A stretch of 52,138 nucleotides of DNA from a virus. Below the pieces are notes generated by a model. It did not search any database and was not told where the DNA came from. It saw nothing but the letters and a program-made list of their open reading frames with translations. The translations under genes and the position numbers were made by a program. How positions within the stretch are numbered: the first letter of the stretch is position 1; each line of letters opens with the position of its first letter. Of this stretch, positions 30,656-52,137 are shown piece after piece. The stretch spans positions 1 to 52,138 of IMG/VR virus record IMGVR_UViG_3300017969_000017. One strand, given 5' to 3'.

Positions 30656-31621
30656 TTAAGCCTTGACAATCTTGGCAAGACCTCTGGGGTTGAGGATAAG
30701 CATTCCGATCAACTCATCCATTACCCATCCACGGTAGAATTGTTCAACTTGGTTGTTCTCTTCAACGTCAAGTGAGTACATGACGGGCATGACACCCAAG
30801 AAGTTGGGGTCTGGGACTAGGTATACGTTACCGGGTGAAATCATGATTGACTTCTGAATGGTGAACTCACCAAACTCAGTAATCATGCCACCACCGAATA
30901 CGGTGTCCTTGAATTGCCAACCAGTTACGTTAATGTCCCATGAGTAGAGGTCACGAACGTCAGCAGGATTCATAAGAATACGCTTGGTTTCGATTTGACG
31001 CTGCTCTAGGTTAGCAACTAGGTCGTAGAAGTCAACAACTTCTAGTGGGTTTCCAGCACCAATTGACTTGGTGGTTGAACCAGTACCACCAGAACCTGCA
31101 TAGCGGTTTGGTTCCTTGGCAGCCCAGTCAGTTACAGCGGTGTCAAGCAAGGTCAAGAGGCGTGAGTCTTCTTGACGCTGAATAGCCTGACGACATTCAT
31201 CTTGGGCATATTCAATTGCGTTTACGCGGAGGTAGTACAGGTCTTCCTTGCGAACGCGAGGGAACGCGGCGACTCTGAAGAGTCTTGGGTAAACCTGCTT
31301 ACCTTCGAAGGGAGTGATCTTGATTTCTGAGTCAGTCTGGTTAAGAATATAAGCCTGTCCAAAGTCATCAAGAACGTCGTAAGGCAAGAGTGGACCCTTT
31401 TCCAAGGTGTCTTCTACAAGCACGTTACGAACAATACCTTCGTAGCGAAGACGAATTTGAATTGGACCAATCATAGCGACACCAAGACGCTTCATAGCGT
31501 TTGATTTGTCTGAAAGAATGGTCTGTAGTTTTGCTTTCTTTTGTTCATTTGTTAATTTTGGCATACCAGCAAGTTTTTGAACGTAGTCACTGCTGTTAAT
31601 TGCCTGTCTTGCTTCATCCAT
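30656..31621 (-). CDS. major capsid protein (HK97-like)
   Basis: 321 aa from ATG 31621. It lies downstream of the protease-scaffold and decoration genes and has the sequence character of an HK97-fold capsid protein: an N-terminal helical arm, a long beta-hairpin E-loop region (EDTLEKGPLLPYDVLDD), the spine helix region (YYLRVNAIEYAQDECRQAIQRQEDSRLL), a P-domain loop (KRILMNPADVRDLYSWDINV) and C-terminal strands (FTIQKSIMISPGNVYLVPDPNFLG). Base composition of this gene is visibly higher in G and C than its neighbours, as expected for a very highly translated gene. A longer reading from GTG 31642 adds 7 residues but would consume the AAGGAG ribosome site, so it is rejected. The weakest point is that no residue-level marker is universal in this family. 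Confidence 0.88.
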   Translation of the reverse strand: MDEARQAINSSDYVQKLAGMPKLTNEQKKAKLQTILSDKSNAMKRLGVAMIGPIQIRLRYEGIVRNVLVEDTLEKGPLLPYDVLDDFGQAYILNQTDSEIKITPFEGKQVYPRLFRVAAFPRVRKEDLYYLRVNAIEYAQDECRQAIQRQEDSRLLTLLDTAVTDWAAKEPNRYAGSGGTGSTTKSIGAGNPLEVVDFYDLVANLEQRQIETKRILMNPADVRDLYSWDINVTGWQFKDTVFGGGMITEFGEFTIQKSIMISPGNVYLVPDPNFLGVMPVMYSLDVEENNQVEQFYRGWVMDELIGMLILNPRGLAKIVKA

Positions 31622-31630
31622 TATCATACT

Positions 31631-31636
31631 CTCCTT
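31631..31636 (-). promoter_or_regulatory. ribosome binding site deciding the capsid start
   Basis: AAGGAG on the minus strand, 9 nt before ATG 31621 and only 3 nt before ATG 31627. It overlaps the stop of the upstream gene. Confidence 0.75.
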
Positions 31637-32183
31637 AGACACTCAACAGTTCGATTACGATCTTGCTAGCACTTACATAGTCAATAAGTCTTGCAACGGC
31701 AGGGCCAGAATCTACTTCTGTGTCGTTGAGAAGACCGTTAGCGTCAGCATATAGTTTACGATTTGCATCAGTGTCTTCATCGGCAGCAGTAATGTTTGAG
31801 TTAAATGCTGGTGAAAGCACTTCAAACACGGCTGCTGGACCGCGCCAAACACCGACTTCGGTAAAGTCTCCAACTTCGTCAAATTCTCCACCGATAAAGT
31901 TACCAAATAGCCCGAATGGTGAAAGGGCAGTTCCACCGACTGATACACACACAACTTCGCCAGCGGGGGCGAGTGCGGCTACCATGCCGGGGAAGATTGG
32001 CCCGTTACCAAGAGTTCCGGGTGCAGTTCCAGAGCCTTTTGAAAAGTCTCCGGTAGCAGTACCAGCAGTACCGTAAGTGCTTGATGACAGAACTGCGGCG
32101 TATGGATACGCTTGAGTTTGTGCATACAAAGCGCGGAGGGTACGTTGCTGATTTGCTGCTGAAATATTTTGAATTCGAAGCAT
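31635..32183 (-). CDS. putative head decoration protein, 182 aa
   Basis: Directly upstream of the major capsid gene, with a very strong AGGAGG ribosome site 8 nt before ATG 32183. Beta-rich with Gly/Ala/Thr-rich loops (SSSTYGTAGTATGDF, GNGPIFPGMVAALAPAGEVVCVSVGG), a central negatively charged segment (GGEFDEVGDFTEVGVWRGP) and a helical C-terminus. Base composition is also relatively GC-rich, like the capsid gene, suggesting high expression. Position (protease, decoration, capsid) matches lambda gpD- or Hoc-like decoration proteins, but no family motif was recognised. A head-fibre base is an alternative. Confidence 0.68.
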   Translation of the reverse strand: MLRIQNISAANQQRTLRALYAQTQAYPYAAVLSSSTYGTAGTATGDFSKGSGTAPGTLGNGPIFPGMVAALAPAGEVVCVSVGGTALSPFGLFGNFIGGEFDEVGDFTEVGVWRGPAAVFEVLSPAFNSNITAADEDTDANRKLYADANGLLNDTEVDSGPAVARLIDYVSASKIVIELLSV

Positions 32184-32240: not shown

Positions 32241-34988
32241 TTAGCCAAAAATAGCATCGTCAGGGAGGCTACCAGCAGAACTTGTTACTGAAGATTCCTT
32301 GACGCCCTTCAATGAGGGAAAACTTGCCAATTTTTTATTAGAAGAAGCCTCTTTCTTTGTAAGGCCAGCCTCTTTAATCTTTGAAAGAGTCTCATACTTG
32401 GCCTGTACAATTGTTAGGTCTTCATTCTCTAACTCAGCAACTCTTGCATACTTCATCTCCGCGTCGTTTAAGCCTAGTTCTACTTCTAGATCTGCTAACT
32501 TAATAGCGGCTAGAACTGGAGATTCGACGTTGCTTTTGTGCAACTCTGCATGATGTTCCGAAATACCTGAAGTTCCCGGCTCATCGGAGTACTGCGGTTT
32601 GTCAACCGTTTTCTTAACCTTTTGATACTGTTCTGGCATCGTACTTGGGTTATGGTTTTTAATATCTTTCGTATAACCCTCGTCGGCATATTGAGGTTGT
32701 TCAACTTCTCGCTTTACACTCTGATATTGTTCAGCCATAGGTGATGGTTCGTGTTCAGAAATTCCTGAAGTTTGATTATTTTTATCACCTTTGTATTGCG
32801 GAGAAGAATCGCCACCATTCGGTTGTGGAATTTGTGGCAATTCACCTAAAGCGACCTTAGTAGTGCTTTCAACAGGTTTTTTCTGATCTGAAATCACTCT
32901 CTGCTCCTTTGGTCTATCAGAAGCGGATTGACCATCTTCTGCTACAGGAACCGTATTAGAAGCGACACCGGCCTCTTTTTCTGGAAGAATCCAACCAAGA
33001 TCGGCTAGTTTTTCGTCGCTTGGAACCTCTTCAACATTTGCCGTAAGTGTTATTTTTGTATTTTCATTCATCTTACTATTAACACTCCGTTTTTGATTTT
33101 TTGATAGTGTTCTCTTTAACTGATCAATAAGGTCTTTGGTTTCATCTCGGGTTTCATCTTTTTGTTCTTCCTTCTGACGATCAAAGTCCTTCGCTTTTGA
33201 TAAATCTGGATCATCTAGAGGCGCTGGTGGCTCACGATAACCACATTTCTCACATCTACCTGATTCATCATCAAGCCCACACTCTCCTGCTAGGCCGATA
33301 GGACAAGGTTTTTCAGTCTTGAGTGTATCAACCTTATTAGGAGCAGTTATAGAATCCGCCTGTTTTTCTACAGACGAAGCCTTAGAAAAAATTGTTTCTA
33401 CTTCTTTAGTTTCGGGATTGGCATCTTTTAAGCGATGACTGCTTTTATTTAATGAATTTGGATCAATTCCAGTATCCATTAAAAAGTCTAAATCTTCATT
33501 GCTTAAACTTCTGTCATAATTTTCTTGCATTTCAAGAAGTGAAGTCTCTTGTACTTTTTTAGCAGGATGTGCAAAAACTTTTACCCAATCGTTAAGTCTT
33601 TTGTGCCAAGTGTTTGCTAATTGATCATACATATCAAAGGCTTTTTTTGGCAATTCGTGCCAAGACTCTACTTTTTCAGCGACCTTTTCATAAAAATCTT
33701 TGTATCTTTTAAAAAGTTGATATACTTCATTTAATTCATAAGAACCTTCTAGATTTTTTAATTTATCAATTAAAATTTTAAAAGTTTCATCAAATTCTTC
33801 AATAAAAGGTCTTTCTTCTTCAAGAGTTAATGGATCTAACCCGGCTGTAATTTTATCTTCAACCATTTCTGCTTCTCTTCTAACAATATCCATCAAATCT
33901 TCAACCGCTTTTATTACTTCTGAGTGATGTTCTGGCAGATCCATTGCAGTTTTTGTATGACTTGTTTTAACAGGCTCAGTAAATAATGCAGTAACATCTG
34001 CTGGATCAAATACGGCAGATATTTCAAAGAAATTTACATTATAACAATCTTCGTAAGCGAGTTTGCTTACATTACCAGTTTTAAATGTAGTTCCCTTTTT
34101 CTTAATATGATTACAATATTCATCTACATTTGCTGCTTTATGGTTACAGACAGAACAAACAGTATATTCAACATTGCAACCCATTGAAACTGCATTGACT
34201 TTACCTTCAATAAGAGCGCTTGCTAGTTTAGGGAAAGACTTGGCATCAACCTCTAACAAAAGTTCAATCCAAGTTTCGGGTTTGTGGTTACTTGGCGCAT
34301 CTCCCCAGTATGAATCGCTAGAAATTTTATGTGCAGGTTCAATATGTAGCATTGCATCTACAATAACGCCTCTTGTTCTTTCAGGATCAGAATTATTGTG
34401 ATCAATAAAAATTGGTCGTCCAATAAAGGTTCTAAATCCATAATCGCCTTTAGATTTGATTGCGCTATCTTTGGTAAAAGTTAGACGATCTAAAGAAGCG
34501 TATCTCTTACCTTTAAATACAAAGCCCTTCATTTCTTTTGGAAACTTCTTGGCTAAAATTTTTGTAGTATTATCAATTTCATGCTCTTCAACAGTCGGAG
34601 TACTAGCCATCACAACATTTTTACCTGCTGGATGATCTTGGTGAGTTATCTTTATGTGTCCACCACCACTTTTGTTAAAAGAAAAACCTCTACCTTTTAA
34701 TTCTTTTTGCCATTTCTTGAGACTGCTTCCTGCTTCTTTTTCTATTTTAGAAGTTAACTTTCTAAACTCTTCCTCATCCATCCCAGCAAGTTCATTAACC
34801 GGCCAACCATCAAAGTTTTTATTTACTCTTGAGGAAATAGCCCTAACTTTAACATAAACATACCCATCGTTCGTTCGATAAGTATCTTTAGGAATATGAT
34901 CAAAAGAAGAAAACTTTGTATTCCCTTCTATTTTTTCATCTGCACTCTTAACTTCAATAACTTCACAATTTGTATATTTAGTTATCAT
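32241..34988 (-). CDS. prohead maturation protease fused to scaffold-like tail, with inserted HicA-like domain
   Basis: 915 aa. Residues 1-85 and about 150-330 form the protease, with a candidate catalytic His197 in FIGRPIFIDHNNSDP and Ser268 in KVNAVSMGC, as in gp21/assemblin-type head proteases. Zinc-like clusters follow: CSVCNH...YCNHI near 278-294 and PCPIGLAGEC...CEKC further on. Residues about 88-148 are a foreign-looking domain (SLKKWQKELKGRGFSF, GGGHIKI, STPTVEEHEI) that matches HicA-like small toxins. After about 345 the protein is acidic, helical and disordered, with a degenerate repeat (SPMAEQYQSVKREVEQPQYADE and STMPEQYQKVKKTVDKPQYSDE), and looks like scaffold. A nested start at ATG 33071 (276 aa, weak ribosome site) could give a separate scaffold. 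Confidence 0.85.
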   Translation of the reverse strand: MITKYTNCEVIEVKSADEKIEGNTKFSSFDHIPKDTYRTNDGYVYVKVRAISSRVNKNFDGWPVNELAGMDEEEFRKLTSKIEKEAGSSLKKWQKELKGRGFSFNKSGGGHIKITHQDHPAGKNVVMASTPTVEEHEIDNTTKILAKKFPKEMKGFVFKGKRYASLDRLTFTKDSAIKSKGDYGFRTFIGRPIFIDHNNSDPERTRGVIVDAMLHIEPAHKISSDSYWGDAPSNHKPETWIELLLEVDAKSFPKLASALIEGKVNAVSMGCNVEYTVCSVCNHKAANVDEYCNHIKKKGTTFKTGNVSKLAYEDCYNVNFFEISAVFDPADVTALFTEPVKTSHTKTAMDLPEHHSEVIKAVEDLMDIVRREAEMVEDKITAGLDPLTLEEERPFIEEFDETFKILIDKLKNLEGSYELNEVYQLFKRYKDFYEKVAEKVESWHELPKKAFDMYDQLANTWHKRLNDWVKVFAHPAKKVQETSLLEMQENYDRSLSNEDLDFLMDTGIDPNSLNKSSHRLKDANPETKEVETIFSKASSVEKQADSITAPNKVDTLKTEKPCPIGLAGECGLDDESGRCEKCGYREPPAPLDDPDLSKAKDFDRQKEEQKDETRDETKDLIDQLKRTLSKNQKRSVNSKMNENTKITLTANVEEVPSDEKLADLGWILPEKEAGVASNTVPVAEDGQSASDRPKEQRVISDQKKPVESTTKVALGELPQIPQPNGGDSSPQYKGDKNNQTSGISEHEPSPMAEQYQSVKREVEQPQYADEGYTKDIKNHNPSTMPEQYQKVKKTVDKPQYSDEPGTSGISEHHAELHKSNVESPVLAAIKLADLEVELGLNDAEMKYARVAELENEDLTIVQAKYETLSKIKEAGLTKKEASSNKKLASFPSLKGVKESSVTSSAGSLPDDAIFG

Positions 34989-39021: not shown

Positions 39022-40314
39022 TTATGATTTCTTTTTCTTTTTTCTGTGGTTATCACATTTTTCACAAGAGCCGGGAGCGCAAGGCTTTGTTCCGGGCACT
39101 CTTTTATACCCATCCCAACAATTACATTTACTCTTTGCCTCTTTGTTTCTTTGAATATATTCTTTTAAGTTTTTAATTGATTTTAACACAGCATTAATTT
39201 CTTTTGGATTTCTGCTACCATCTAGCGTCATCCTATATTCTTCTAAAAGCCTTTCGGCTTCTTTAAAATTTTTATTATCAACAGCGTCTTTAATTCTTTG
39301 TGGGCTAAACATAAAACCCCGTTTTTTCTTAGAAGATTCTTTACTTCTTTCCATTTCTTTAACTTTAGATGCAGCCCAAGATCTTCCTGCATTCCCGCCC
39401 CAAGCCAGCCAAGCAACATCCCAAGGTGTAACTTCGCCTTTGCCAGCCTTTTCTGAGCGACCTCCAGCGTGTCTTTCAAAGAAAGAGTGCATACGCTTAA
39501 CATGCTCTGGGGTTAATTCTTTTCCTTCTGCAATCTTGCGAGCGCGAGTGAGAGTCGCAGATTCAAAGCCTTTACCCGCTTTTCCTTCAGAATGATATTT
39601 AATACCTCTACGAGCAGCAGCACGAACGCCCTCTGGGGGAGTTAAGTCAACAGATGATTTCTTTTTTCTTTGTTCAGGTTTATCCATTGTTTTAGTACCC
39701 GTAGGATCTGCTTTTTTTAATTCTTCATTTGCCCACTCTTTTAATTCTTTTTCACTTTTTGGGGGGCTATGATATTTTTCTATATATTGCTTACCCATTC
39801 CCGGAGAAATACTTTCCCAAAGATCAATCATTGCATTGTTGTATTCTTCATCATCTTTTTCTTTAAGTGCTTCTTTTACTCTATCAACTTTTTCATTACT
39901 ACTCATAATAAACCTTTCACTAGAACGACGTATGATATGAATATCTACTGGCTCTCCTGTTGTTATATCAACACTTCTCATTCCAGTAGGCTCTGCTCTT
40001 AATGCTCTTTTTAATTCTTCATTTGCAAATGCAGCATAGTAAGGTTGCGGCAAGTTTTTTCTTATCCATTTAAAAATTTCTACACTAAGACGAGGATATT
40101 TACTTTTAAGTTCTTCTATTTCTTTTGTATTTTCATAAGGATGAAGTTTGTCGCCATATCCCAAATAAAAAATTGCAGTTCCGTCGCCGTTAGGTACAGG
40201 GGCATAGTAAACAGAACCAATAATTTGATCTTCGTCTTTTATTAAGAAATATTCACTGACATTATCTGATCCATGCTCAACGTTAAATTCTTCAAAATAA
40301 GATCGCTTTTTCAT
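39022..40314 (-). CDS. head-associated protein with recurrent phage head domain and zinc-ribbon end, 430 aa
   Basis: Unknown virion-type protein. The N-terminal 110 residues are GNAT-like in look (QIIGSVYYAPVPNGDG, LSVEIFKWIRKNL). Residues about 225-320 contain a domain found in many phage head-associated proteins: PPEGVRAAARRGIKYHSEGK, TPEHVKRMHSFFERHAGG and VTPWDVAWLAWGGNAGRSWA. The end has a cysteine cluster (CNCWDGYKRVPGTKPCAPGS then CEKC), a likely zinc ribbon, and a Lys-rich tail. Start ATG 40314 overlaps the upstream stop (TAATG); an alternative ATG at 40323 would overlap by 10 nt. It is probably packaged in or attached to the head, but the precise job is unknown. Confidence 0.68.
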   Translation of the reverse strand: MKKRSYFEEFNVEHGSDNVSEYFLIKDEDQIIGSVYYAPVPNGDGTAIFYLGYGDKLHPYENTKEIEELKSKYPRLSVEIFKWIRKNLPQPYYAAFANEELKRALRAEPTGMRSVDITTGEPVDIHIIRRSSERFIMSSNEKVDRVKEALKEKDDEEYNNAMIDLWESISPGMGKQYIEKYHSPPKSEKELKEWANEELKKADPTGTKTMDKPEQRKKKSSVDLTPPEGVRAAARRGIKYHSEGKAGKGFESATLTRARKIAEGKELTPEHVKRMHSFFERHAGGRSEKAGKGEVTPWDVAWLAWGGNAGRSWAASKVKEMERSKESSKKKRGFMFSPQRIKDAVDNKNFKEAERLLEEYRMTLDGSRNPKEINAVLKSIKNLKEYIQRNKEAKSKCNCWDGYKRVPGTKPCAPGSCEKCDNHRKKKKKS

Positions 40315-43300
40315 TATTCCCATCTTTTCTTAGGAAAATCTTCTTCAGTTGCCCATTCAAGTTTTTTACCCGGCTGCACTTTCCACTTATCTCTAATGTT
40401 TTTACGATGCTTTCTTGCTTCATTTTGATCAGTTTCTTCAGGCCCAAGCCATTCTTCTTCTCTTTTTGAAACAGGTTCAGCATACCATTTAGACATATCA
40501 GCACTGTAATCTGGATTTGAAGCGCCTAACCCTTGTGCAATTATTTCGTCAGCGTTGTTAATAACTTCACGAATTTGTTTATCTAGTTCTCCTTTTATCC
40601 ATGCAAAGTTAGGATCATTTGCATACATCAATTCTGCTTTATCATAAATTTCAGAATAATAACGTTCAAAAATCCAAAGTAAATGTCCTAATCCCAATTC
40701 TTTAGTTTTTTCTATTGTATTTTGAAAACTTTCAATTGCTCCTTCTTCTTGCCACGGCCAGTCTTTTATTATTGCCTCATATATAGGTTCATCTTGTAAA
40801 TTCTTTTTAATGTCATATTTGAGTGCTTCTATATAATTTTGCCAATTTTTATTAGTTTCTTCCCAAAAACCATCATAAAAAGAATCTTGGTATTCCTCAT
40901 CAAGAACCCAACTTTCTTCAGATCCTGCAAATATGTCTATTAAATCTTCTGAAGCGCCGTCTATAAAATTATCATAAAAATCTTGAGTTTTACTAGCAGC
41001 ACCCACTTCGCGGTAAAGGCCGCCATAACTAGAAATGCTTTGAGATTGCATAAAATTAGGAACTATTGACAAATTATACATGGCTGCGGCTTGACCTTCC
41101 CATTTAGCCTCTTCTTGAGTGTGTTCTTCGTGTTCTTCGTTTTCAATATCATCCCAATTATCAACTGAAGTCTTTTTCCATTTAGAAGTCCTTCTCCACT
41201 TAGACAGAAGTGAAAGTTGTTGCTCATCAACTCTAGTGGGCAATTGTGAAATACCTTCTCCCTTATGTAAACCTCGTTCAAATCTTTGACGATAATCTGA
41301 AAAGTCTGTTTCATCAAACTCAGACCAATTTAATAATTCGTCTTCTTCTGGATTAAACATTGAACGCAATTGATTCATTGAATTATATTTGTTTATAATT
41401 TTAAGAATACTTGTTGCACGACTTTCATCTTCAGATCCTGATTCCCCCCAATTTTGATTTATTTTATTAACTTCAACAAGATTTTTTGCCAATTGTTTAG
41501 GATCTTCGCTCCAAATAGAGGATAGCCACTCGTTCCATTTTTCTTTATAATTAGGATCATTTGGATTTGTCATAGTCATCTTTTCAAAAGCATCTCTCCA
41601 TCCCCCACGGCGTTGATCTTCAAAACTAGGAATTATCAATAAGTCTTGATTTCTTGTTTGTTGACTTTGCATTATTTTAGCAAGTTGATCTACTTGGCCC
41701 GTTCTTCTTGCATAATCTAATAGTTTTTGAAGATCTTCTTGAGAGATATCTTCTGGCAAAGAGGTTAATAATCTTGCCATATCAACAGGCTTATCTGGGC
41801 TTGCTTCTGGCGGATAGATTCCATAATGCTCTGGTCTATAGTTTCTATCAAACCCCCCGGGACCGGCGTAAGGGTGTCGCCTCATATTTTCGTCATATTT
41901 TGAATCAAATTCTTCTTCTTCATCAATAGCAATCATACTTGGATCATAGTTAGACTCTCCATCCATATTTCTAAACTCTTGCCATTCGGTTATATTGCGA
42001 CCCCCGGGAAGAGTCGGTTTTTTATTAAAAAGTCGTTCAAACCCGTTGGGATCTGTCATAAATTGACGAATTCTTTTTCTATATTTTGCAAGAGGGTGAA
42101 GGTTTTGTTTTCCTTGAATTTGTTGAATAGAGCCGTCTTTATTTATTTCTAAAGTAGCGTGAGGTTTATTATTTGGACTTCTTAAAGAAACAATTTTTAT
42201 TAGACCTTGTTCTATTCTGTCTCCATATCCTTGACGACGAACACAGTGTTGCATAGTTTGACCTTCATAATCACACTCTTCTGGTGAAAGATCCCTTATA
42301 AACCATCCATCGGGCCACTCATAAATAATTTTTTCGTCTTTTTTCTTTTCTTCATCTAAAGAAACTCCTTGAGACAGAAGTTCTAAGTCCCATTCTTGGA
42401 TTTTATCAAAAATATCTTTTACTGAAAATTCCATGATGTTAACGCCACGACGAGTAGGAGAATTACTTCCATACCAATCTGCCCAATGAGAAAGAGTTGC
42501 TTCGTCTAAAAATCCTCTAAATTCAGTTCCTTCAATGGGAGTAGTTTGCATCAGTTCCACAAAAGCATCTTCGCCTTCTCCAACCATTGAAGGTTCTAAT
42601 CTTTTCTTTTTATATTCTCTTACAATCCAAGGCAGAAAGTCATCAACTTTTTCGGGAAGACCTTTCATCCAGTCAAGAACCTTTTGCCCCTCTTCTGTTC
42701 TAAGCACTTTAGGATCGTCTTTAATAATCTTATCTAGTTTAGATGCGGTTACTTGTTTCCACTTAGATTGTTTTTGTTCTGGTCTATAAAAACCACAAGT
42801 GCATGGTTTCCCTGTATGAACATTTTTATGAAGAGTAGACTTTGCAATTTTTTCACTTCTATATTTTTCTTTAGGTTTCATTTTTTTATCGCCAAGTATT
42901 TCTGATGCAGAAGGTACATAGTCGCCAGAATAGGGGCTTGCCCAATTCATTTGAGGAATAAATGGGACTTCTCCACTTTCTTCTAATTTCTTTCTTTCAT
43001 TAATTTCGTCTTGTAATTCTTGAGGGAGTTCATCTATTAATAAATCATGATCTGTTTTTAATTTAAAATTAGGAAGAGTATCTGGTCTTTGTTTTTTGGG
43101 TACAAGAAGTTTTTTTTGTTTTCTGTTTGGAACACGCTCCCGAATTGGCGGCGTTTGTTTTTTTGTTTTTGGATGAAGCCTATGCTCCTTAAGACTTCTA
43201 GAAGGAATATTGTTTTCTTGTAAATAATTTTTAATTGCATTTGTAGAAACATTATATTTTTTTGCAAGTGATGCTACGCTTTCTCCCCCAACGTATTCAG

Positions 43301-43769
43301 CGATAATATCTCTTAAAAACTCAGAACCTTTTGTGTCGCGGATTGATGGGCGCGCTGATTTTTTATCCGGCAAACTTTTATAATTTTTTTGTCCTTCAAC
43401 GTATTCACAAGCCTTAGCGCGAGTCATCCCCTTTGGAGGCTCAATAGAGCCATTACAAATACCTTGCATATATCTAAATTGGGCTTTACTACGAGCGGGC
43501 GCTTCTTTTAAAAGATAAGATTGTTTTTGATTTTGTTTCATAGAAAAAGAATAGGCAGGATACATACTCTGAAGTTCAGCAATAAGTTGTTCTCTAATTC
43601 CACCTTCGCGCCAATACTTACGAGGAATATAGATATAATCTACAATAAGATTTTTATTATTATTATCAACTTTATAAAACAATTGACCTACCGGAAGTTG
43701 GTCTTCTTCTAAGACCGCAAATAGTTTACCATTTTGTCCTTCTTCTATGTTTTGAAAATCAACTTTCAT
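40314..43769 (-). CDS. multidomain virion protein: GNAT-like, DUF3008-like, HTH, PcfJ-like, and modular tail
   Basis: 1151 aa. Order: residues 1-85 GNAT-like (VGQLFYKVDNN, VDYIYIPRKYWREGGIREQL); about 92-135 DUF3008-like (ARSKAQFRYMQGICNGSIEP, SLPDKK); about 150-195 a helix-turn-helix (SVASLAKKYNVSTNAIKNYL); about 490-600 a PcfJ-like domain (DGWFIRDLSPEEC, GQTMQHCVRRQGYGD, LEINKDGSIQQIQGKQN); then a long acidic helical part; and at the end the LGPEETDQNEARKHRK...EEDFPKKRWE module that recurs in the giant upstream protein. Such collections are known as polyvalent proteins, thought to be delivered with DNA to counter host functions. No signal peptide. It contains K-T-S and K-Q-V-T-A-S sites like the presumed processing motif. 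Confidence 0.75.
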   Translation of the reverse strand: MKVDFQNIEEGQNGKLFAVLEEDQLPVGQLFYKVDNNNKNLIVDYIYIPRKYWREGGIREQLIAELQSMYPAYSFSMKQNQKQSYLLKEAPARSKAQFRYMQGICNGSIEPPKGMTRAKACEYVEGQKNYKSLPDKKSARPSIRDTKGSEFLRDIIAEYVGGESVASLAKKYNVSTNAIKNYLQENNIPSRSLKEHRLHPKTKKQTPPIRERVPNRKQKKLLVPKKQRPDTLPNFKLKTDHDLLIDELPQELQDEINERKKLEESGEVPFIPQMNWASPYSGDYVPSASEILGDKKMKPKEKYRSEKIAKSTLHKNVHTGKPCTCGFYRPEQKQSKWKQVTASKLDKIIKDDPKVLRTEEGQKVLDWMKGLPEKVDDFLPWIVREYKKKRLEPSMVGEGEDAFVELMQTTPIEGTEFRGFLDEATLSHWADWYGSNSPTRRGVNIMEFSVKDIFDKIQEWDLELLSQGVSLDEEKKKDEKIIYEWPDGWFIRDLSPEECDYEGQTMQHCVRRQGYGDRIEQGLIKIVSLRSPNNKPHATLEINKDGSIQQIQGKQNLHPLAKYRKRIRQFMTDPNGFERLFNKKPTLPGGRNITEWQEFRNMDGESNYDPSMIAIDEEEEFDSKYDENMRRHPYAGPGGFDRNYRPEHYGIYPPEASPDKPVDMARLLTSLPEDISQEDLQKLLDYARRTGQVDQLAKIMQSQQTRNQDLLIIPSFEDQRRGGWRDAFEKMTMTNPNDPNYKEKWNEWLSSIWSEDPKQLAKNLVEVNKINQNWGESGSEDESRATSILKIINKYNSMNQLRSMFNPEEDELLNWSEFDETDFSDYRQRFERGLHKGEGISQLPTRVDEQQLSLLSKWRRTSKWKKTSVDNWDDIENEEHEEHTQEEAKWEGQAAAMYNLSIVPNFMQSQSISSYGGLYREVGAASKTQDFYDNFIDGASEDLIDIFAGSEESWVLDEEYQDSFYDGFWEETNKNWQNYIEALKYDIKKNLQDEPIYEAIIKDWPWQEEGAIESFQNTIEKTKELGLGHLLWIFERYYSEIYDKAELMYANDPNFAWIKGELDKQIREVINNADEIIAQGLGASNPDYSADMSKWYAEPVSKREEEWLGPEETDQNEARKHRKNIRDKWKVQPGKKLEWATEEDFPKKRWE
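40317..40462 (-). repeat. linker module type A (in the 1151-aa gene)
   Basis: Encodes EEEWLGPEETDQNEARKHRK ... DKWKVQ ... EWATEEDFPKKRWE at the end of the 1151-aa protein. The same module occurs three times inside the giant upstream gene. Confidence 0.85.
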
Positions 43770-43806: not shown

Positions 43807-46800
43807 CTATACACATATTTCTTTTAATTTAGATTCTTTATATCCTTTTCTGTAATTTATTGCTTCTTTTAGCGAAGATTCAAAAACATCAGGGTAAATT
43901 CCTAGTTCTTCGTATTCAGGATTAAAGTCTGGATCGTGTTCTTGAAGTATTTCTTCTACAGGTCTAAGACCATCTCCATCTAATCCTTCTCCAGTTTCGG
44001 GATTAATTAAGAAAAAGTGCCACGCCCCGTCATTTGGCCCTTCAGCAATTTTATAGATCGGCCAGCCTGTTTCTTGATGTTTTTTTATTGCAAAAAGGTC
44101 GCAGTCTCCGTGTCTCCAATTATTATTTGATTCTTTATATCCAACAGGCTGAATGATAAGATCATATGGATGCTTGCCATGATCAAAGTGGAATGACCAG
44201 CGCTTCTTTTCTTCGTAAAGTTTTAGATCTTCCATTGCATGCCCGTCTTGCTCTTTTGCTTCGGAATCAATCTTTTCATTATCATGAGGATTTTCTTTAT
44301 TTATATATCCGTCTTTAAGTTGTTTAAGCCACTTGAGGGTTTGTTTTTTTACTTCTTCCCAACTTCCAGTAGTGAGGATATCGTGGCCCATCTCTCCATC
44401 AAGAACGGCTTCCCATGCGTCTTTTTTATTTGCTGAAGTTTTGTTACCATTAAATAATCTTTTAAACTCTTCGTGATAAGTATTTTTAAATATAAGATAA
44501 AGATTATTTTTATCATCATTTGATAAAGAATTCATCAATTCTTTTTCTGCTTGATCCATTTCATAAACAGGCATTGTATTATTAAAAAGATGATTCCACA
44601 ACGCTTCTTTTGCTATTTGTAGAAGATAATAAATATAAAATTTTTCAATTGAAATTCCTTTTTCAAAAAGTTGTTTTAATCTTTTTTCTCTAAAAATGTC
44701 AACTTGGTTTGGATCATAAAAACGATTATTAAGAGTTTCTTGAGTTATCCCAGATGAAGATAGATCTATATCATCTACAAGATATTTTAATTGTTCATTA
44801 CTACTTCCGGGAATTGCATTTCCAAATGGGTGATTTTCAAATTGTTCCCATATTTGTTTTGCTTTTCTAATCGCTTCTTTTTTTGTAACTTCTGGGAGAG
44901 ATTTTCTTGCAGGAATAAGTTTTTCTCTAACAAAAGAGTCTGTAAATTCACTATTTTCAAACATAGCGGTTTTTGAATACATACCCCATTGTCCCTTTGG
45001 TCTTGCATATTCTGCTGGTTGTGGATTATGCTTAGGACGAACTATTTTCCATTTTTTATTATTAATGACTTTTTCTTCAGGCTTGTCATCTTCTTCAATA
45101 GAATCTGGAATTCCTTCAAAGGTTGTTTCTGCAACTTCATCTCCAATTGCCATTTGTCTTTGCCCATGAGAACTTGTTTTCTTTGCAATATTAATTATTT
45201 CTTTATTATTAAGTTTATTAAAATCTATGTAGTTGTGAACTATGCCATATTCCCAACCAGCCTTATAACTCTGTTCTAGTATTTCCCAGAATTTTTCCCA
45301 GTCATCGTTGGGAATATCTGTTTTTTCAAAAAAATGAGTATAATTTTTAACTATAATACGAACGCCTTCTCCAACAATTATTGGTTCAAAATTATTTCTT
45401 AATCTCTCTCTAAATAATTCTAATTGGTTTGGATTGTAATGTCTATCTGGTTCAACATAATCGTCTGATTTATTAAGTTCATTATAATTAATTCTGGCTA
45501 ACGCTGTTTGTGCATTATGAAATCCATTAACAACACCTTGAAAACGAATATTATCAGCAACTAAAGCATTTTTTGAAGATTTTAAGTCTTCCGACTCTTC
45601 AATTACTTGATCTTCGTGGTCATTAAGCAAAAAGTCTATTTGAGCCTCTTCTTCATCCCAGTCAGATGAAATAATTTTCCATTTAGATAATTTTGAAGAT
45701 GTTTCTTCTTTAAATGTCTCATCCCACGCTTTATAAAAAGCATTATTATAAATTAATTCATTTTCTTTTGTGTTTGTAATATCAAATATGTCTTTTAATA
45801 TAATCTTTTTTTCTAAATATCCTAACTCTAACATATAATATTCTATTCGATCCAGAATAAGCCATTGAAGTTCTGTTTTAAACGATCCAACCCAATAAAC
45901 TTCATCTTTCAAAACATTATCTGCCATAGTTCTGAGTTGTTCAATTCCTAATCCTAATTGATTTTTATTAATTAAACGATTTTCTTCCGTTTGATGAAAA
46001 TGAATCATTTTTTCTTCATATGTATTTAAAGGAGAAATTATCTCACCATCATCGTCCAACCATACTTTTTTTTCTTTATCGTAATGTTTATTTAATCTAT
46101 CAGTGTTATATCTATCAATCCATGCTTTTAAAATTCTAGAGGCTTCCCACCCGGCTCTTTGAGGTAATAGAACAGGAACTTCTTCTATTATTTTATTTAT
46201 AATTTGTTTTGTACTGTCAGTATAGTCGTCATGAGAAGCGATCTTACCACGATATTGAAGATCTTCTTTTACCCAGTCATAAATTTCTTGCCAATTTATA
46301 TTTTCTACTTTAAGTAAATATCTTTCAATATCTTCTGGCTCTGGTTCTCCAAAGAAACCAAATTGCATCTGTTCCATCTCTTGAACATATTGCTTTTGCT
46401 TTTGCAAACTAAACGGAAACTGTTTTCTTGCTTGCTGTTTCCATGTTTTTCTAAGTTCATTTTTTTGGGCTTCTACATCTTGTTCGTCTGATATATTTTC
46501 CCAATTTTGAGCAATTCCTTGATTATAAGGATTAAGCACATTTTCAATCATCCAATTAGCAAGGTCTTGAACAGAGCCACCTTGACGAACAATCTTTTCC
46601 ATTGTCTTAATAGAAGGACGCAATATTCTTGAGTCCGATAATATTTGTTCAACTAAAATTTCTGTTTCTGGAGTAGACCAATTTTCATATTGAGAAGCAG
46701 TTTTAGATTGTTGCCTCATCCAATCAACAACTTGTGGACTTGGAGAAGCAGGTTCTGGCTCGGGCAACTCACCCTTTACGTTATAAAGATCCATCATTTC

Positions 46801-49800
46801 TTGATCGGGGTGAATGTTACGATCATTTTGCTCTCTCTGTCTTTGCTCTTTCCATTTTTCAAAAAATGCTTCAGCAATGTTATAACCACCTAAAACATGG
46901 TTTATTTCTATTTCTGCTCGTCTTTCTAGTTCTCCAGTATAATCATGTGCTTCATCCCACAAATATTGTCTTATAGTATCTTCTATGTCTGCCCAATGTT
47001 CTTCATATTCTTCTGTAGTTAACTGATCTTCAATATTTATATAAAAATCAATTGCTGTTTCTACAAAATATTCAAACCAACGTCCCGCCTCTTCTGTTGC
47101 CCATTCTATTGCAAGATTTTCTTCAGGATTTGAATTATTAACTAAGGAGTTAACATATTTTTTAAAAATTGCCTCGTCAGACCACACACCTAATGGTACT
47201 AACTGCTCAAAAACTATATCTTCCCAGTCATAATCTTCAAGAAAAGAGGTAACAATCGAATCTCCATCTATAGTTTGAACTTCTTGAAGAATCATCCAGT
47301 CAATTTCTGACCAGTCTCTAATATCTTTTTCCTCTTCTTCCTCTTCTTCTTCATCCCACTCATCTGCTGCAACAATCTTCCTTTTAGAACCCTTCCACCA
47401 ACTTTCAGGTTCCCATTTGTCAAGATTTTTATATCTTCTTAACTCTTCTTCTTCTTGTTCATTTCTTTCTGGTTTATTTTCATAAAAGTCTACAATATCA
47501 GAAGGAGTCCACTTGGGGTGATCTTGATGGTCTAACTCGTATCCAGTTTCAGTATAAACTTCGTACAAAGCGTTATTAATAGCATAAGGACCGCCAAATG
47601 CAGTTTGACGAACATTATTATGCATTATTTCAAACTGACTATGTATTTCATCATCATCTATATACATCAATGATTCAAATATTGGCGTAAAAATATCAAT
47701 AAATGCATCTTGGATAAATGAATCAAGATCATATGCTGGGCCATTGTAACCACTTTCTTCTTTGATTTCATCAATATAATCATACCAATTATATAATATT
47801 TCGTAAGCAACTTTAACCTTTTCAAATACAGTTGCTTCAGATTCCCAATCAAACGTCGCAGTTTTCTTAAGATTTTCTATCATTGTATGATAAAGGCGAG
47901 GCAGGAACTGATTGGGCATAGCAGAAACTTTTGTTTGAAAATGTTTTTCATATCCTGCTCTAATCTCATCATCCGATTCTCCACTTAAACGCCCTTGAGA
48001 GATATAATTATACATGCTTTCCATTTTTTGAAGCAAGTCGGGCATTTTATTGTTAATAAATTCTTCAATTGCTATAATTCTTGTTTCGCTGAAAGAATAA
48101 TAACTTTTCTTCCAATCAGGGAATAGTGATTCTAATAATTTTTGATGATTTGTAAAGTCTATCCACGAATCATGAAGCCGTTCCATTTTTAATTGATTGG
48201 GAACAACTTCCATTCTATCTGGATATTTTTCAACGGTAAAACCGCTTCCCATTGATGGAAGATCTTCTAAAACAACATCAAATGCATATTTTTCAATTAA
48301 TTGCTTAGTTTGATTTTCGTTTTGTTCTAATTGATTGTAGTATTGAGTATATAAATCTTCAAATCCCCCTGCAATCTTCCATTTAGAAGTAAAATCCCAA
48401 GGCTTTTTAGGAAAGTCTTCTTCAGTTGCCCAATTTAAAGGCTCATCAGATCCACGCAATGTCTGAATCTTCCATTTATCTTTAATTTTCTTACGATGCT
48501 TTTTAGCCTCGTTCTCATCTGTCTCTTTGGGACCAAGATAGGCTTCGGCGTCTGAGTCTACTGGGTCATAAAAACGTTCAATGTTGTTTATTACAGTAGG
48601 CCATAAACTTAAAACTTTACTATCATTTAATAAATCTTGAGCGTATTTGTTTAACTCGTTATACACATAGTTATTAATAGGTTCATATACACTTATCAGT
48701 TTGTTAAGTTGATCGGATAAATCATCCCAACCATTAAGCGCTTCGTCTAAGAATCCTAAAAAGTCTAAACTATTCATTTCGAAAGAAAGATACCTTTCAA
48801 GAAGCATATCTTCTTCTAACCAAATTATTTTATCATTTGTTAAATTTGTTAAATCATTGCGAATTTTTTTAACAAAATGAAATATGTCGCCTCTAACTTC
48901 ATCAATAGCCTGATTTGCAAAATATCTATTAGTGTCTTCCCAATCTACATGCTCTCTTGCTAAATCTTCTATATCATAAATTAAATCTGTATCATTATCA
49001 TATAATTCTCTTAATTCTGGAGAAACGCCGCTTTGAGGGCTTTCAAGATAATCATAAATGTCTCTCCAAATTGCTTCTGATATGCTATCTTCGGCAACAT
49101 AAATTGCATCTCTATAAGTAGAGTCTTGCACAAATTCTAAATCAGAATAAGCGGTATCTTTATAAGCATCCATATAATCTATGGGATATGGAGCAACATC
49201 TTTTGCTAGTTCTTCTATTTCTTTTTGAATTTGAGTAGAGTAATCAGATGCTACCTTACTCTCCCATCTTTTTTTAGGAAAGTCGTCTTCGCTAGCCCAC
49301 TCAAGTTTTTGCCCCGGCTTGCGTTCCGTTTGGATTTTCCATTTATCGGCTATATTTCTGCGATGTTTTTTAGCCTCATTTTCGTCTGTTGCTTCAGGGC
49401 CAAGATAGGGTTCTCTACTTTCTGGCACAGGATTATATAATTCGGAGATATTTGCACTCTCTGAGAATGCCGCTCTTAGCCTTTCTTCATCAATATTTTC
49501 CCAAAATCCTTCATCAACGTCAAGATAAAATTCTTCTATAAGAAAATAAGGATCTTGAATATAGGGATTAGGTTCTCCTTCTTCAATATAACCTGTTGCA
49601 GCACGAAGTTCATTGTATGCATTAGATTCATAAATATGATCTTCTATTAAAGAAGTCTTTCCTTCTTTAAGGTTTTCTAAGTAATCAATTCTATCTTTAA
49701 CAGACCAGTACCTAACAGAATTTTCAGACAGATCCATTACATATTCAGCAAAATATTTACCCTCTTGATATCCTGCCTGATTAACAGATTCTTCAATAAT

Positions 49801-52137
49801 CTGTGCATATTCTATTCCAAGATTCCGAACAGACTGTTCAATATACTCAAAAAATTCCCATCTGTTTTCTTCAGTTCTTAGTTCTTCTGGGACTGTATTA
49901 TAAAAATATCTTTCTGCTTCATCAATAAGGCTTTGTTTTAGCCTTTCATACATTCCAAGGAATTGCGCTCTTTCCCAGTATGCTATATTTTTTGGATTTA
50001 ACCCAAGAGATTTTCCTGCAAGATTGGCATATTCTGCTAATAAATATTCTTCTGGATCATAAAAATTATTATTTATTCTGTCGTTTGATTGTTTAGTATG
50101 AGAGCCTTTCCACCATTCTTCGGGTTCCCATTTTTCTTTTACTTCTTCTGTTTTCTTTTTACGTTCATCTTCGTTAATTTCTTGATGAAGTACTTCGTTG
50201 GCTTTTTCTTGACGCCGATCCCACTCTTCTGAAGTTTTTGCACCAGTTTCTATAATTTTTTCAAAATATTCAAAGATATCTGTTTTATTGCCAAACCAAT
50301 CTTCCATAAATTGAACTTCTGGGTATTTATCAACCCATTTTTTTAATTCGTTTAAAACTTTTTGAATTTTAGGAATAGCGGAAGGAAAATATGAAAGCCA
50401 TTCTTGTTTATCATATTGGCGATTAGCAAGTTGATCGTTTATACTATCAAGAATTGGATGTAAACTTTTTTTAATTTCTTTTTCAGTAGGTTCCCAATTT
50501 TTGTTTATATTTTTACCACATTCATCACATTGCTTCCACCAATCATCTTCATCGGGATATTCATCTTTAAATAACGAGGGGTAAGAACCACCTTCAAAGT
50601 CAATATAATCTCCGGGTTTTAGATACTGCATATACTTTTGGGCACAATCTTTACATATGTCAGACCCATAATCATCTTGATTTTTAAATATAACGTAGTG
50701 TTCGTCGCGTGAGTCTAAAGGGCTACTTGTTTTAGAGGTAAAGTCCCAAGGTTTTTTAGGGAAATCTTCTTCTGTTGCCCAGTTTAATCTGTCTCCCTTT
50801 GATCGGTCGTAATCAACCTTCCATTTGTCAGCGATATCTCTGCGATGTTTCTTGGCCTCATTTTCGTCTGTCTCTTCTGGGCCAAGGTACGGCTCTCGTG
50901 AGGGGTCAACAGGTTCATACAAATGTCTTGCGTCTGCTCCCAAAGAGTCTTCCATCTTTCGCACACTAATATTACTCCGAAATCCTTCGTCTAACCCCTC
51001 GCTCCAATCATCGTATCCGCTGTTTAGACTGGCTTCCTGAAGAACTTCAGCGGCATTGTGAAAAGAATAAACTTCATCAAAGTCCCACATATTTGCATAT
51101 TCAAGAAGATTAGAATGTCCTTCTTCGATATTTTTTATTTCGTCCAGTCTAGCCGCAATCGGCCAACTTTTTACTTCAGCCGGGTCAAAATCCATAAAGT
51201 AGGAGGCAATTGTTTTTCCCACTCTTTTTGCATCTTCATAAATTGCATCATAGATATCCCTTGAATATCTATCAATAATTCCGTAAATTTCTTCTTCGAC
51301 GGCTTCAATAAACTTTTCTTTTACTACTTGTTCATCTTTAATATTATATCGTTTAACAAAACTATCGGCAAAATTATGTACTTCGTCTTCAAGATAAAAA
51401 AGATCGTTAGAAAGAAGTCTTTTATCTGTCACCAAATCACTAATAATATCGGCCTTTTCCCAGTACCGTAGATTGGTAGGGTTAACAGTTATGCTTTTGT
51501 TTTTCTGCTGCACATAACTTTCAACTATAACTTGTTCAAGATCATAGAACTTATCTTTCATCTCTTGAATTAATTCAGGGGTGGCTGCAATAACCCTTTT
51601 CCGTTTAGAACCCTTCCACCAGTCGGCTGGTTCCCATTTGTCAATAATTCTTTTACGGTGCTTTCTGGCTTCGTTCTTATCTGTTGCCTCTGGCCCCAGA
51701 TTAGTTTCCATATTTTCTGGGAGTGGGTTATATAAGTCATAGAGATTAGAAGGAATATAACCCATATCATCTGGTTCTGGCTGCTCAGATTGGTATTCGA
51801 ATCCCCATTGATCCCAAAGTTCTTGATAATCAACATCTTTGCGTTCAATTAAATTGACAGCATCATTTTCTTCTTCGTTCATACGATCAATAACTTTATT
51901 TATTTCTTGAACAAAATAATCAAACGACTGGCCGTTTTCCATTATATTAAAAAATCTGTCGTAATCGTCATCATCATCGTAAGTTTCAGACCAGATTCTT
52001 TCTTGAATGTCTGGGTTGCGAGCAGAACCTTTCCACCAACTTTGCGGCTCCCATTTGTCTTGAATATTTTTTTGACGTTTTTTATTATTTTGTATATCAT
52101 ATTCTTCAGAACTCATATCTTCAGGCGAAATAGAAAT
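43807..52137 (-). CDS. giant modular repeat protein, cut by the right edge
   Basis: At least 2776 aa. The first ATG seen is at 52116, but the frame stays open to the edge and the visible start aligns with the inside of a repeat module, so the true start is outside. Rich in W, E, D, K and N, largely helical. Paralogous blocks (FYDPxQ...NPxNxxYWExA...MDxxxxxxW) alternate with linker modules of two types: LGPExTDENEAKKHRxxIxDKW...EEDFPKKxW and DKWEPxxWWKGS. A CKDC...CDEC zinc-ribbon-like pair lies near 50.5-50.7 kb. The last 130 residues hold a papain-like candidate (GDCDLFAIKKHQ, AWHFFLINP, GLDGDGLRP). Repeated K-(T/V/I)-(A/S) sites occur between blocks. Probably a head-packaged, possibly processed multi-protein; function is unknown. 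Confidence 0.75.
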   Translation of the reverse strand: MSISPEDMSSEEYDIQNNKKRQKNIQDKWEPQSWWKGSARNPDIQERIWSETYDDDDDYDRFFNIMENGQSFDYFVQEINKVIDRMNEEENDAVNLIERKDVDYQELWDQWGFEYQSEQPEPDDMGYIPSNLYDLYNPLPENMETNLGPEATDKNEARKHRKRIIDKWEPADWWKGSKRKRVIAATPELIQEMKDKFYDLEQVIVESYVQQKNKSITVNPTNLRYWEKADIISDLVTDKRLLSNDLFYLEDEVHNFADSFVKRYNIKDEQVVKEKFIEAVEEEIYGIIDRYSRDIYDAIYEDAKRVGKTIASYFMDFDPAEVKSWPIAARLDEIKNIEEGHSNLLEYANMWDFDEVYSFHNAAEVLQEASLNSGYDDWSEGLDEGFRSNISVRKMEDSLGADARHLYEPVDPSREPYLGPEETDENEAKKHRRDIADKWKVDYDRSKGDRLNWATEEDFPKKPWDFTSKTSSPLDSRDEHYVIFKNQDDYGSDICKDCAQKYMQYLKPGDYIDFEGGSYPSLFKDEYPDEDDWWKQCDECGKNINKNWEPTEKEIKKSLHPILDSINDQLANRQYDKQEWLSYFPSAIPKIQKVLNELKKWVDKYPEVQFMEDWFGNKTDIFEYFEKIIETGAKTSEEWDRRQEKANEVLHQEINEDERKKKTEEVKEKWEPEEWWKGSHTKQSNDRINNNFYDPEEYLLAEYANLAGKSLGLNPKNIAYWERAQFLGMYERLKQSLIDEAERYFYNTVPEELRTEENRWEFFEYIEQSVRNLGIEYAQIIEESVNQAGYQEGKYFAEYVMDLSENSVRYWSVKDRIDYLENLKEGKTSLIEDHIYESNAYNELRAATGYIEEGEPNPYIQDPYFLIEEFYLDVDEGFWENIDEERLRAAFSESANISELYNPVPESREPYLGPEATDENEAKKHRRNIADKWKIQTERKPGQKLEWASEDDFPKKRWESKVASDYSTQIQKEIEELAKDVAPYPIDYMDAYKDTAYSDLEFVQDSTYRDAIYVAEDSISEAIWRDIYDYLESPQSGVSPELRELYDNDTDLIYDIEDLAREHVDWEDTNRYFANQAIDEVRGDIFHFVKKIRNDLTNLTNDKIIWLEEDMLLERYLSFEMNSLDFLGFLDEALNGWDDLSDQLNKLISVYEPINNYVYNELNKYAQDLLNDSKVLSLWPTVINNIERFYDPVDSDAEAYLGPKETDENEAKKHRKKIKDKWKIQTLRGSDEPLNWATEEDFPKKPWDFTSKWKIAGGFEDLYTQYYNQLEQNENQTKQLIEKYAFDVVLEDLPSMGSGFTVEKYPDRMEVVPNQLKMERLHDSWIDFTNHQKLLESLFPDWKKSYYSFSETRIIAIEEFINNKMPDLLQKMESMYNYISQGRLSGESDDEIRAGYEKHFQTKVSAMPNQFLPRLYHTMIENLKKTATFDWESEATVFEKVKVAYEILYNWYDYIDEIKEESGYNGPAYDLDSFIQDAFIDIFTPIFESLMYIDDDEIHSQFEIMHNNVRQTAFGGPYAINNALYEVYTETGYELDHQDHPKWTPSDIVDFYENKPERNEQEEEELRRYKNLDKWEPESWWKGSKRKIVAADEWDEEEEEEEEKDIRDWSEIDWMILQEVQTIDGDSIVTSFLEDYDWEDIVFEQLVPLGVWSDEAIFKKYVNSLVNNSNPEENLAIEWATEEAGRWFEYFVETAIDFYINIEDQLTTEEYEEHWADIEDTIRQYLWDEAHDYTGELERRAEIEINHVLGGYNIAEAFFEKWKEQRQREQNDRNIHPDQEMMDLYNVKGELPEPEPASPSPQVVDWMRQQSKTASQYENWSTPETEILVEQILSDSRILRPSIKTMEKIVRQGGSVQDLANWMIENVLNPYNQGIAQNWENISDEQDVEAQKNELRKTWKQQARKQFPFSLQKQKQYVQEMEQMQFGFFGEPEPEDIERYLLKVENINWQEIYDWVKEDLQYRGKIASHDDYTDSTKQIINKIIEEVPVLLPQRAGWEASRILKAWIDRYNTDRLNKHYDKEKKVWLDDDGEIISPLNTYEEKMIHFHQTEENRLINKNQLGLGIEQLRTMADNVLKDEVYWVGSFKTELQWLILDRIEYYMLELGYLEKKIILKDIFDITNTKENELIYNNAFYKAWDETFKEETSSKLSKWKIISSDWDEEEAQIDFLLNDHEDQVIEESEDLKSSKNALVADNIRFQGVVNGFHNAQTALARINYNELNKSDDYVEPDRHYNPNQLELFRERLRNNFEPIIVGEGVRIIVKNYTHFFEKTDIPNDDWEKFWEILEQSYKAGWEYGIVHNYIDFNKLNNKEIINIAKKTSSHGQRQMAIGDEVAETTFEGIPDSIEEDDKPEEKVINNKKWKIVRPKHNPQPAEYARPKGQWGMYSKTAMFENSEFTDSFVREKLIPARKSLPEVTKKEAIRKAKQIWEQFENHPFGNAIPGSSNEQLKYLVDDIDLSSSGITQETLNNRFYDPNQVDIFREKRLKQLFEKGISIEKFYIYYLLQIAKEALWNHLFNNTMPVYEMDQAEKELMNSLSNDDKNNLYLIFKNTYHEEFKRLFNGNKTSANKKDAWEAVLDGEMGHDILTTGSWEEVKKQTLKWLKQLKDGYINKENPHDNEKIDSEAKEQDGHAMEDLKLYEEKKRWSFHFDHGKHPYDLIIQPVGYKESNNNWRHGDCDLFAIKKHQETGWPIYKIAEGPNDGAWHFFLINPETGEGLDGDGLRPVEEILQEHDPDFNPEYEELGIYPDVFESSLKEAINYRKGYKESKLKEICV
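47387..47440 (-). repeat. linker module type B
   Basis: Encodes LDKWEPESWWKGSKRKI. Confidence 0.75.
48388..48542 (-). repeat. linker module type A (giant gene copy 3)
   Basis: Encodes AYLGPKETDENEAKKHRKKI ... DKWKIQT ... NWATEEDFPKKPWDFTSK. DNA identity to the other copies is visible over the AAGTCTTCTTCAGTTGCCCA stretch. Confidence 0.85.
49256..49412 (-). repeat. linker module type A (giant gene copy 2)
   Basis: Encodes EPYLGPEATDENEAKKHRRN ... DKWKIQT ... EWASEDDFPKKRWESK, followed by VAS. Confidence 0.85.
49400..50105 (-). repeat. large helical repeat R2 of the giant gene
   Basis: About 235 codons. Landmarks in order: NFYDPEEYLLAEY, NPKNIAYWERAQ, AEYVMDL, WSVKDRIDYL, YLDVDEGF, YNPVPESREPY, each matching the same landmark in R1. 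Confidence 0.78.
50096..50143 (-). repeat. linker module type B
   Basis: Encodes KEKWEPEEWWKGSHTKQ. Confidence 0.75.
50740..50892 (-). repeat. linker module type A (giant gene copy 1)
   Basis: Encodes EPYLGPEETDENEAKKHRRD ... DKWKVD ... NWATEEDFPKKPWDFTSK, followed by TSS. Confidence 0.85.
50885..51600 (-). repeat. large helical repeat R1 of the giant gene
   Basis: About 235 codons. Landmarks in order: KFYDLEQVIVESY, NPTNLRYWEKAD, ASYFMDF, WPIAARLDEI, EGLDEGF, YEPVDPSREPY. It aligns along its length with the block at 49400-50105, so the two are duplicated. Confidence 0.78.
51598..51704 (-). repeat. linker module hybrid (type A start, type B end)
   Basis: Encodes LGPEATDKNEARKHRKRIID, then KWEPADWWKGSKRKR. 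It joins the first half of type A to the KWEPxxWWKGS half of type B, showing that the halves have been recombined. Confidence 0.8.
52028..52078 (-). repeat. linker module type B at the visible start of the giant gene
   Basis: Encodes QDKWEPQSWWKGSARN. Confidence 0.75.

Follow-up and report, generated by a model that had tools for sequence, protein, structure and literature searches.

The head maturation protease of one lineage of environmental tailed phages contains an insertion in a loop of the enzyme, and both sequence profiles and the predicted fold support assignment of that insertion as a divergent HicA-like domain. This is a new setting for the HicA family, which has hitherto been represented by the toxins of toxin-antitoxin pairs and, recently, by a few defence-type fusions. 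The window analyzed here is the whole 52,138-nucleotide stretch of IMG/VR record IMGVR_UViG_3300017969_000017; features discussed below are collected in Table 1. An earlier note, made from the sequence alone, had placed a HicA-type domain in this ORF, and its frame and residues were found as claimed (SSLKKWQKELKGRGFSFNKSGGGHIKI...ASTPTVEEHEI corresponds to residues 88-138 of the 915-aa ORF).

Table 1. Features of the insert-bearing protease gene and its neighbors (window coordinates).
Feature	Position	Strand	Details
Head maturation protease with long C-terminal scaffold-like region	32241..34988	(-)	915 aa; PHROG and fold matches
N-terminal protease strand and motif, residues 37-67, YRTNDGYVYVKVRAISSRVNKNFDGWPVNEL	34788..34880	(-)	Kept in all homologues; precedes insert
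Inserted stretch, residues 87-165 (~79 residues)	34494..34730	(-)	Absent from all homologues outside the insert-bearing lineage
HicA-like core, residues 88-148	34545..34727	(-)	AlphaFold2 model, profile match (residues 89-131), hhalign, Foldseek
Gly109-Gly110-His111	34656..34664	(-)	Aligned with Gly22-Ser23-His24 of Burkholderia HicA
Ser129-Thr130-Pro131	34596..34604	(-)	Aligned with (S/T)P(S)D motif of phage HicA-like proteins, past third strand
Remaining protease core, residues 181-345	33954..34448	(-)	His197 (34398-34400), Ser268 (34185-34187), CxxC..CxH cluster (278-294)
C-terminal scaffold-like region, residues 346-915	32241..33953	(-)	Acidic, hydrophobic tail DDAIFG resembles that of most relatives (tails of 33 relatives compared)
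Cement-protein homologue	31635-32183		After protease gene; PF23968, E 3.6e-16
Major head protein	30656-31642		After protease gene; phrog_2522, E 6e-97

Membership of the ORF among head maturation proteases is indicated by its fold and conserved residues, and by its position beside head genes. The PHROG families hit over residues 181-346 are phrog_18299 (head maturation protease, E 1.1e-24) and phrog_2774 (E 1.1e-55), and a BFVD fold search with its predicted structure retrieved viral prohead proteases, COG3740 and XkdF-like proteins. Related proteins are annotated as "prohead protease" (gp77 of Rhodococcus phage E3) and "capsid maturation protease" (Gordonia phages). Insert-free homologues share 47 protease positions at a conservation of 95% or more; the insert-bearing protein keeps 46 of these (His197, Ser268 and 44 others), and the remaining one is an indel column; the protease core therefore looks functional. 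Conservation and knowledge of the family suggest that His197 and Ser268 are the catalytic residues. Just past the conserved serine, a CxxC...CxH cluster (Cys278, Cys281, Cys292 and His294; window 34107-34157) is invariant in the protease group and is likely a metal site. The long C-terminal region would play a scaffold role. Most of these protease-scaffold ORFs (window 32241-32340 and the ends of 33 relatives) terminate in a tail that is both acidic and hydrophobic (DDAIF, DDSALF) and that may bind the capsid.

The insertion is evident from comparison with homologous proteases, in which a loop separates the motif AIS(S/A)RVN(K/Q)N.DGWP..EL from a second, downstream motif, TF.G(K/R)P.F..H, with an invariant His. 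Measured from the start of the first motif, the second lies 23 residues away in the shortest homologues, 47-50 away in many, 63 away in the closest relatives and 137 away in the window, and it is in this loop of variable length, after the N-terminal strands and ahead of the conserved His197, that the insertion is found. Aligned with 53 insert-free homologues, residues 87-165 fall in empty columns save for a stray alignment of residues 106-109, and the core is otherwise intact, bearing out the earlier description of a protease split at this point. In the nearest insert-free homologues (L004, L005, L006 and L011; 73-75% identical), ...SKLAKTSETGG runs directly into ISKLTFTGDSAEIKSKGDYGF. An assembly artefact of the window was rejected, because the same insert (99-100% identical) occurs in three other contigs, L001-L003, from three different metagenome accessions; no further relative among the 80 best loci carries it. 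Its frame is open, with neither stop nor frameshift, in all four contigs. Across the 915 codons these four gene copies differ at three amino acids and at no synonymous site, numbers from which selection is not measurable, and two of the three lie in the insert, which is possibly under relaxed constraint. No foreign base composition was seen: G+C and third-position G+C of the insert match the rest of the protease gene, which argues against a very recent arrival from a compositionally different source. DNA repeats were not found at the insert borders. Presence of the insert in Mycobacterium and Gordonia phage proteases, suspected from tblastn ranges, was rejected on reading the sequences. Two long homologues (L088:4001-5251 and L097:4001-5497) owe their extra length to inteins at the serine motif: each has an intein-like insertion, one short and one long, directly after that conserved motif (GCFV..SDGT / GCFVPGT..ADGT ... 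VHN-C).

Because single-sequence searches of Pfam, NCBIfam, PADLOC and the PDB with the insert returned nothing significant, profiles were built. A HicA-like family was assembled without the insert from phage proteins, viral contigs and bacterial genes, its phage members including E3 gp189.5, the "HicA-like toxin" of Arthrobacter phage Ottawa, the "hicA toxin superfamily" protein of Nocardia phage NTR1 and a protein of Pseudanabaena phage Pan1. The profile of 16 such proteins, one of them a domain (L047) from the phage record G031, matched residues 89-131 in the insert's own record with E 4.5e-6. A model excluding the G031 domain was used to rank 10,445 ORFs from related loci; the insert, scoring 18-20 bits, came immediately behind the true HicA-like proteins, and the first decoy below it scored 12 bits. 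By hhalign the insert reached 94% probability and a score of 38.2, as against 18.1 for the best of 300 shuffles and 16.1 for the best of 234 segments of other window proteins; its resemblance to HicA is above chance. The family profile itself, compared with the PDB, found five sequences, all of the HicA family (6g26, 4c26, 1whz, 9svk and 4p78; E 0.03-1), of which 1whz was deposited as a hypothetical protein and has been assigned to HicA (PMC3969222).

The similarity proposed earlier was thus upheld by profile comparison, with Gly-x-His kept in the hhalign alignment, but the single sequence falls below the Pfam threshold for HicA. With PF07927 the window sequence alone gave no match over the curated cut-off of 27 bits, and two natural insert variants reached E 0.093, also below it; the "toxin" family phrog_353 matched the excised insert with E 0.0054. 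Free-standing phage HicA-like proteins are about equally weak in Pfam, the first member of the assembled family scoring E 0.073. A tblastn search of phages with the insert found only Pseudomonas phage NoPa-type structural proteins (E about 2), judged to be chance matches. Nothing significant was found among plasmids, nor any relative in a genome-collection scan with the insert.

The predicted fold adds to this evidence. AlphaFold2 was given residues 1-350 and 56 sequences, the insert being represented in only three near-identical rows. In the resulting model, helix 72-98 (fused with the preceding loop helix) is followed by strands 102-107, 111-116 and 124-128 and by helix 135-148, with pLDDT mostly 70-87; residues 161-178, past the domain, have low confidence. 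The alpha-beta-beta-beta-alpha order predicted for the insert is that of HicA, as described for the Burkholderia protein (PMC3969222) and by Gerdes (PMC10865869). Foldseek comparison with the PDB ranked HicA 1whz first, 6g26 fourth and fifth, and 4c26 twenty-third, with weak E-values of 0.46 to 3.3. Modeled alone, however, the insert gave a poor structure (pLDDT 60.6) that lost the third strand, and the Foldseek list for this isolated model contained no HicA. The fold evidence is hence supportive, short of decisive: the HicA order was recovered in the protease context and not in isolation.

Residues characteristic of HicA are also retained. The insert has GGGH at residues 108-111, and profile alignments equate Gly109 and His111 with Gly22 and His24 of Burkholderia HicA, in which mutation of either residue abolishes toxicity (Butt et al. 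2014, PMC3969222). The core (residues 88-150) carries a net charge of +5. Neither PF15919 nor PF05534, the HicB families searched, had a match in the window or in the three sister contigs, all of which are fragmentary records. We use the name HicA-like, rather than HicA toxin or HicAB, because the insert is below the PF07927 cut-off, is embedded in a 915-aa ORF instead of forming a free-standing small toxin gene, and has no HicB encoded alongside in these records. Judged by these sequence features, it is not a HicAB toxin-antitoxin module.

Potential sources of such a domain are present in related phages. HicA-like matches were detected in 11 of 50 phage records (nearly all with the same protease), four of them representing the insert-bearing lineage. 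Small free-standing HicA-like frames occur in five records whose protease is without the insert (G026, G031, G042, G054 and G058), and matches lie within longer frames in G033 and G052. The free-standing gene of G042 is identical to the insert at 17 of 44 positions in a local alignment. The closest phage sequence relatives found for the insert are orphan HicA-like proteins of phrog_2089 and phrog_353, exemplified by Rhodococcus phage E3 gp189.5, Arthrobacter phage Ottawa gp35 and LeBron gp82. These share the G-x-H and (S/T)P motifs with the insert and likewise have no HicB, as far as two Pfam families searched in related phages indicate; they differ in being free-standing genes of 58-100 aa, and in most of them the third strand is followed by TPSDHR...N, which is replaced by STPTVEEHEIDN in the insert.

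Embedded modules were also seen elsewhere in these phages. In G031 (contig 3300023184_000079), which also has a free-standing HicA-like gene (L145), an 854-aa head-region protein encoded upstream of the protease (L147:4905-7466) has its own embedded HicA-like domain near residues 709-777. This domain matches phrog_2089 with E 1.8e-10; it scores E 4.4e-23 with a profile whose query alignment contains the domain itself, and E 4.7e-11 with a profile excluding it. A phrog_2859 module is found inside the L036 protease ORF (residues about 267-381) but in a separate gene (39022-40323) in the window. On the strength of the G031 domain and the L036 module, exchange of modules among the head-region proteins of these phages looks usual.

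The reading we favor, with a probability of about 60%, is that an orphan phage HicA-like domain was captured in frame and has been retained by the protease as an accessory module, probably one that binds RNA. Its source would most plausibly have been a free-standing orphan gene like those of related phages, and it would have entered a surface loop of the protease already variable in length. In favor of capture are the range of loop lengths, the absence of the insert from other homologues, the retention of conserved protease positions, the free-standing HicA-like genes in phages with the same protease, the traffic of modules, and the failure to find HicB. The insert would fold as an independent surface appendage and would not act as the toxin of a toxin-antitoxin pair. 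We infer, as the earlier note had proposed, that it may be a domesticated toxin and may bind RNA; with the positive charge of its core, it could have retained the nucleic-acid binding of HicA while serving as an accessory module in prohead assembly. As part of the protease-scaffold polyprotein it would be confined inside the prohead, and it may be removed or released as the protease processes itself at maturation. A stronger proposition, which we advance only tentatively, is that a HicA-derived RNA-binding or RNase domain is a working part of the head maturation protease and ties prohead maturation to RNA, within a wider traffic of HicA-like domains among head-region proteins. If true, the link could consist, for example, in the clearing or sensing of RNA in the prohead, or in delivery of an RNase with the virion.

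Other explanations must be weighed against capture as an accessory module. The domain could be an active effector, a working HicA RNase carried on the protease whose targets would be host or trapped RNA late in infection, or which would reach the next host together with the virion, by a logic comparable to that of the toxin domains borne by phage MuF head proteins (PMC5576092). Both residues matching those needed for HicA toxicity are kept (PMC3969222), and a phage HicA-like protein, Adephagia gp91, is strongly toxic (PMC11373665). However, another orphan of this type, LeBron gp82, is non-toxic (PMC13148394), and no HicB-like antitoxin was found in the insert-bearing records; moreover, the domain lies in the middle of the protease and is not a releasable C-terminal toxin, and the MuF study places toxin domains on temperate, not virulent, phages (PMC5576092). 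We consider an effector of this kind unlikely.

Improbable, too, is a neutral passenger, that is, a recent in-frame insertion without selected function, tolerated by a permissive loop. Restriction of the insert to one near-identical lineage, the location within it of two of the three residues that differ between copies, and the large length changes accommodated by the loop would all be expected of such a passenger, but the HicA fold and Gly-x-His motif are still recognizable, the frame is uninterrupted in four contigs, and the matching composition speaks against very recent arrival from a compositionally different source. The assignment itself might be mistaken, the insert being an unrelated alpha/beta structure with a coincidental likeness to HicA, for example one elaborated from the loop of the protease itself. 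The lack of a Pfam match over the cut-off, Foldseek E-values all above 0.4 and the isolated model devoid of HicA matches are compatible with such a coincidence; nevertheless, independent lines of sequence and fold evidence concur, and the loop of relatives contains no related sequence, and we hold a chance resemblance to be very improbable.

The insert can be set beside several known systems. With the HicA toxin family (PF07927; 1WHZ, 4C26, 6G26) it shares a predicted dsRBD-like fold, a Gly-x-His past the first strand and a length of ~60 residues, but it differs in its place within a head protease, its score below the Pfam cut-off and the lack of a detected HicB. Concerning precedent, our searches of the open-licence literature turned up no HicA domain described in a head protease, in agreement with the earlier note; fusions of HicA to other proteins are nonetheless known (Gerdes 2024, PMC10865869), and to that extent the note's statement that there was no precedent must be narrowed. 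Those fusions (classes 11-14, including HicB-HicA and SMC-HicA) also place a HicA domain within a larger protein, but join it to HicB or to an SMC-like C-terminus, and neither interrupt an enzyme nor involve a virion-assembly protein (PMC10865869). The MuF polymorphic toxins of temperate phages similarly display a toxin-type domain on a head-region protein, but as C-terminal extensions of a portal-associated protein rather than an internal insertion in a protease, and HicA does not appear in the text describing them (PMC5576092). Head maturation proteases of Caudoviricetes, in Bixzunavirus and E3-like phages, agree with that of the window in protease core, gene order and the positions of His, Ser and CxxC..CxH, and differ in that the insert is missing from every homologue examined; two of these relatives have inteins at the serine motif instead.

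A HicA-like domain in a virion-assembly protease shows phages putting toxin folds to new use as building blocks, and the 75%-identical proteases without the insert provide a natural comparison of the enzyme with and without it. Should the domain prove active or RNA-binding, a testable link between head maturation and RNA would arise, one not described as far as our searches of open-licence papers show.

Two further large proteins are encoded in the window. One, a 1151-aa head-region protein (40314-43769), combines a PcfJ-like domain (PF14284, E 9.5e-11) with a DNA-binding-like segment (phrog_1303). The other, of 2769 aa (43807-52116), contains many repeats of a module like LGPEATDENEARKHRRNIADKWK...FPKK(R/P)W, one copy of which is also located at the end of the 1151-aa protein.
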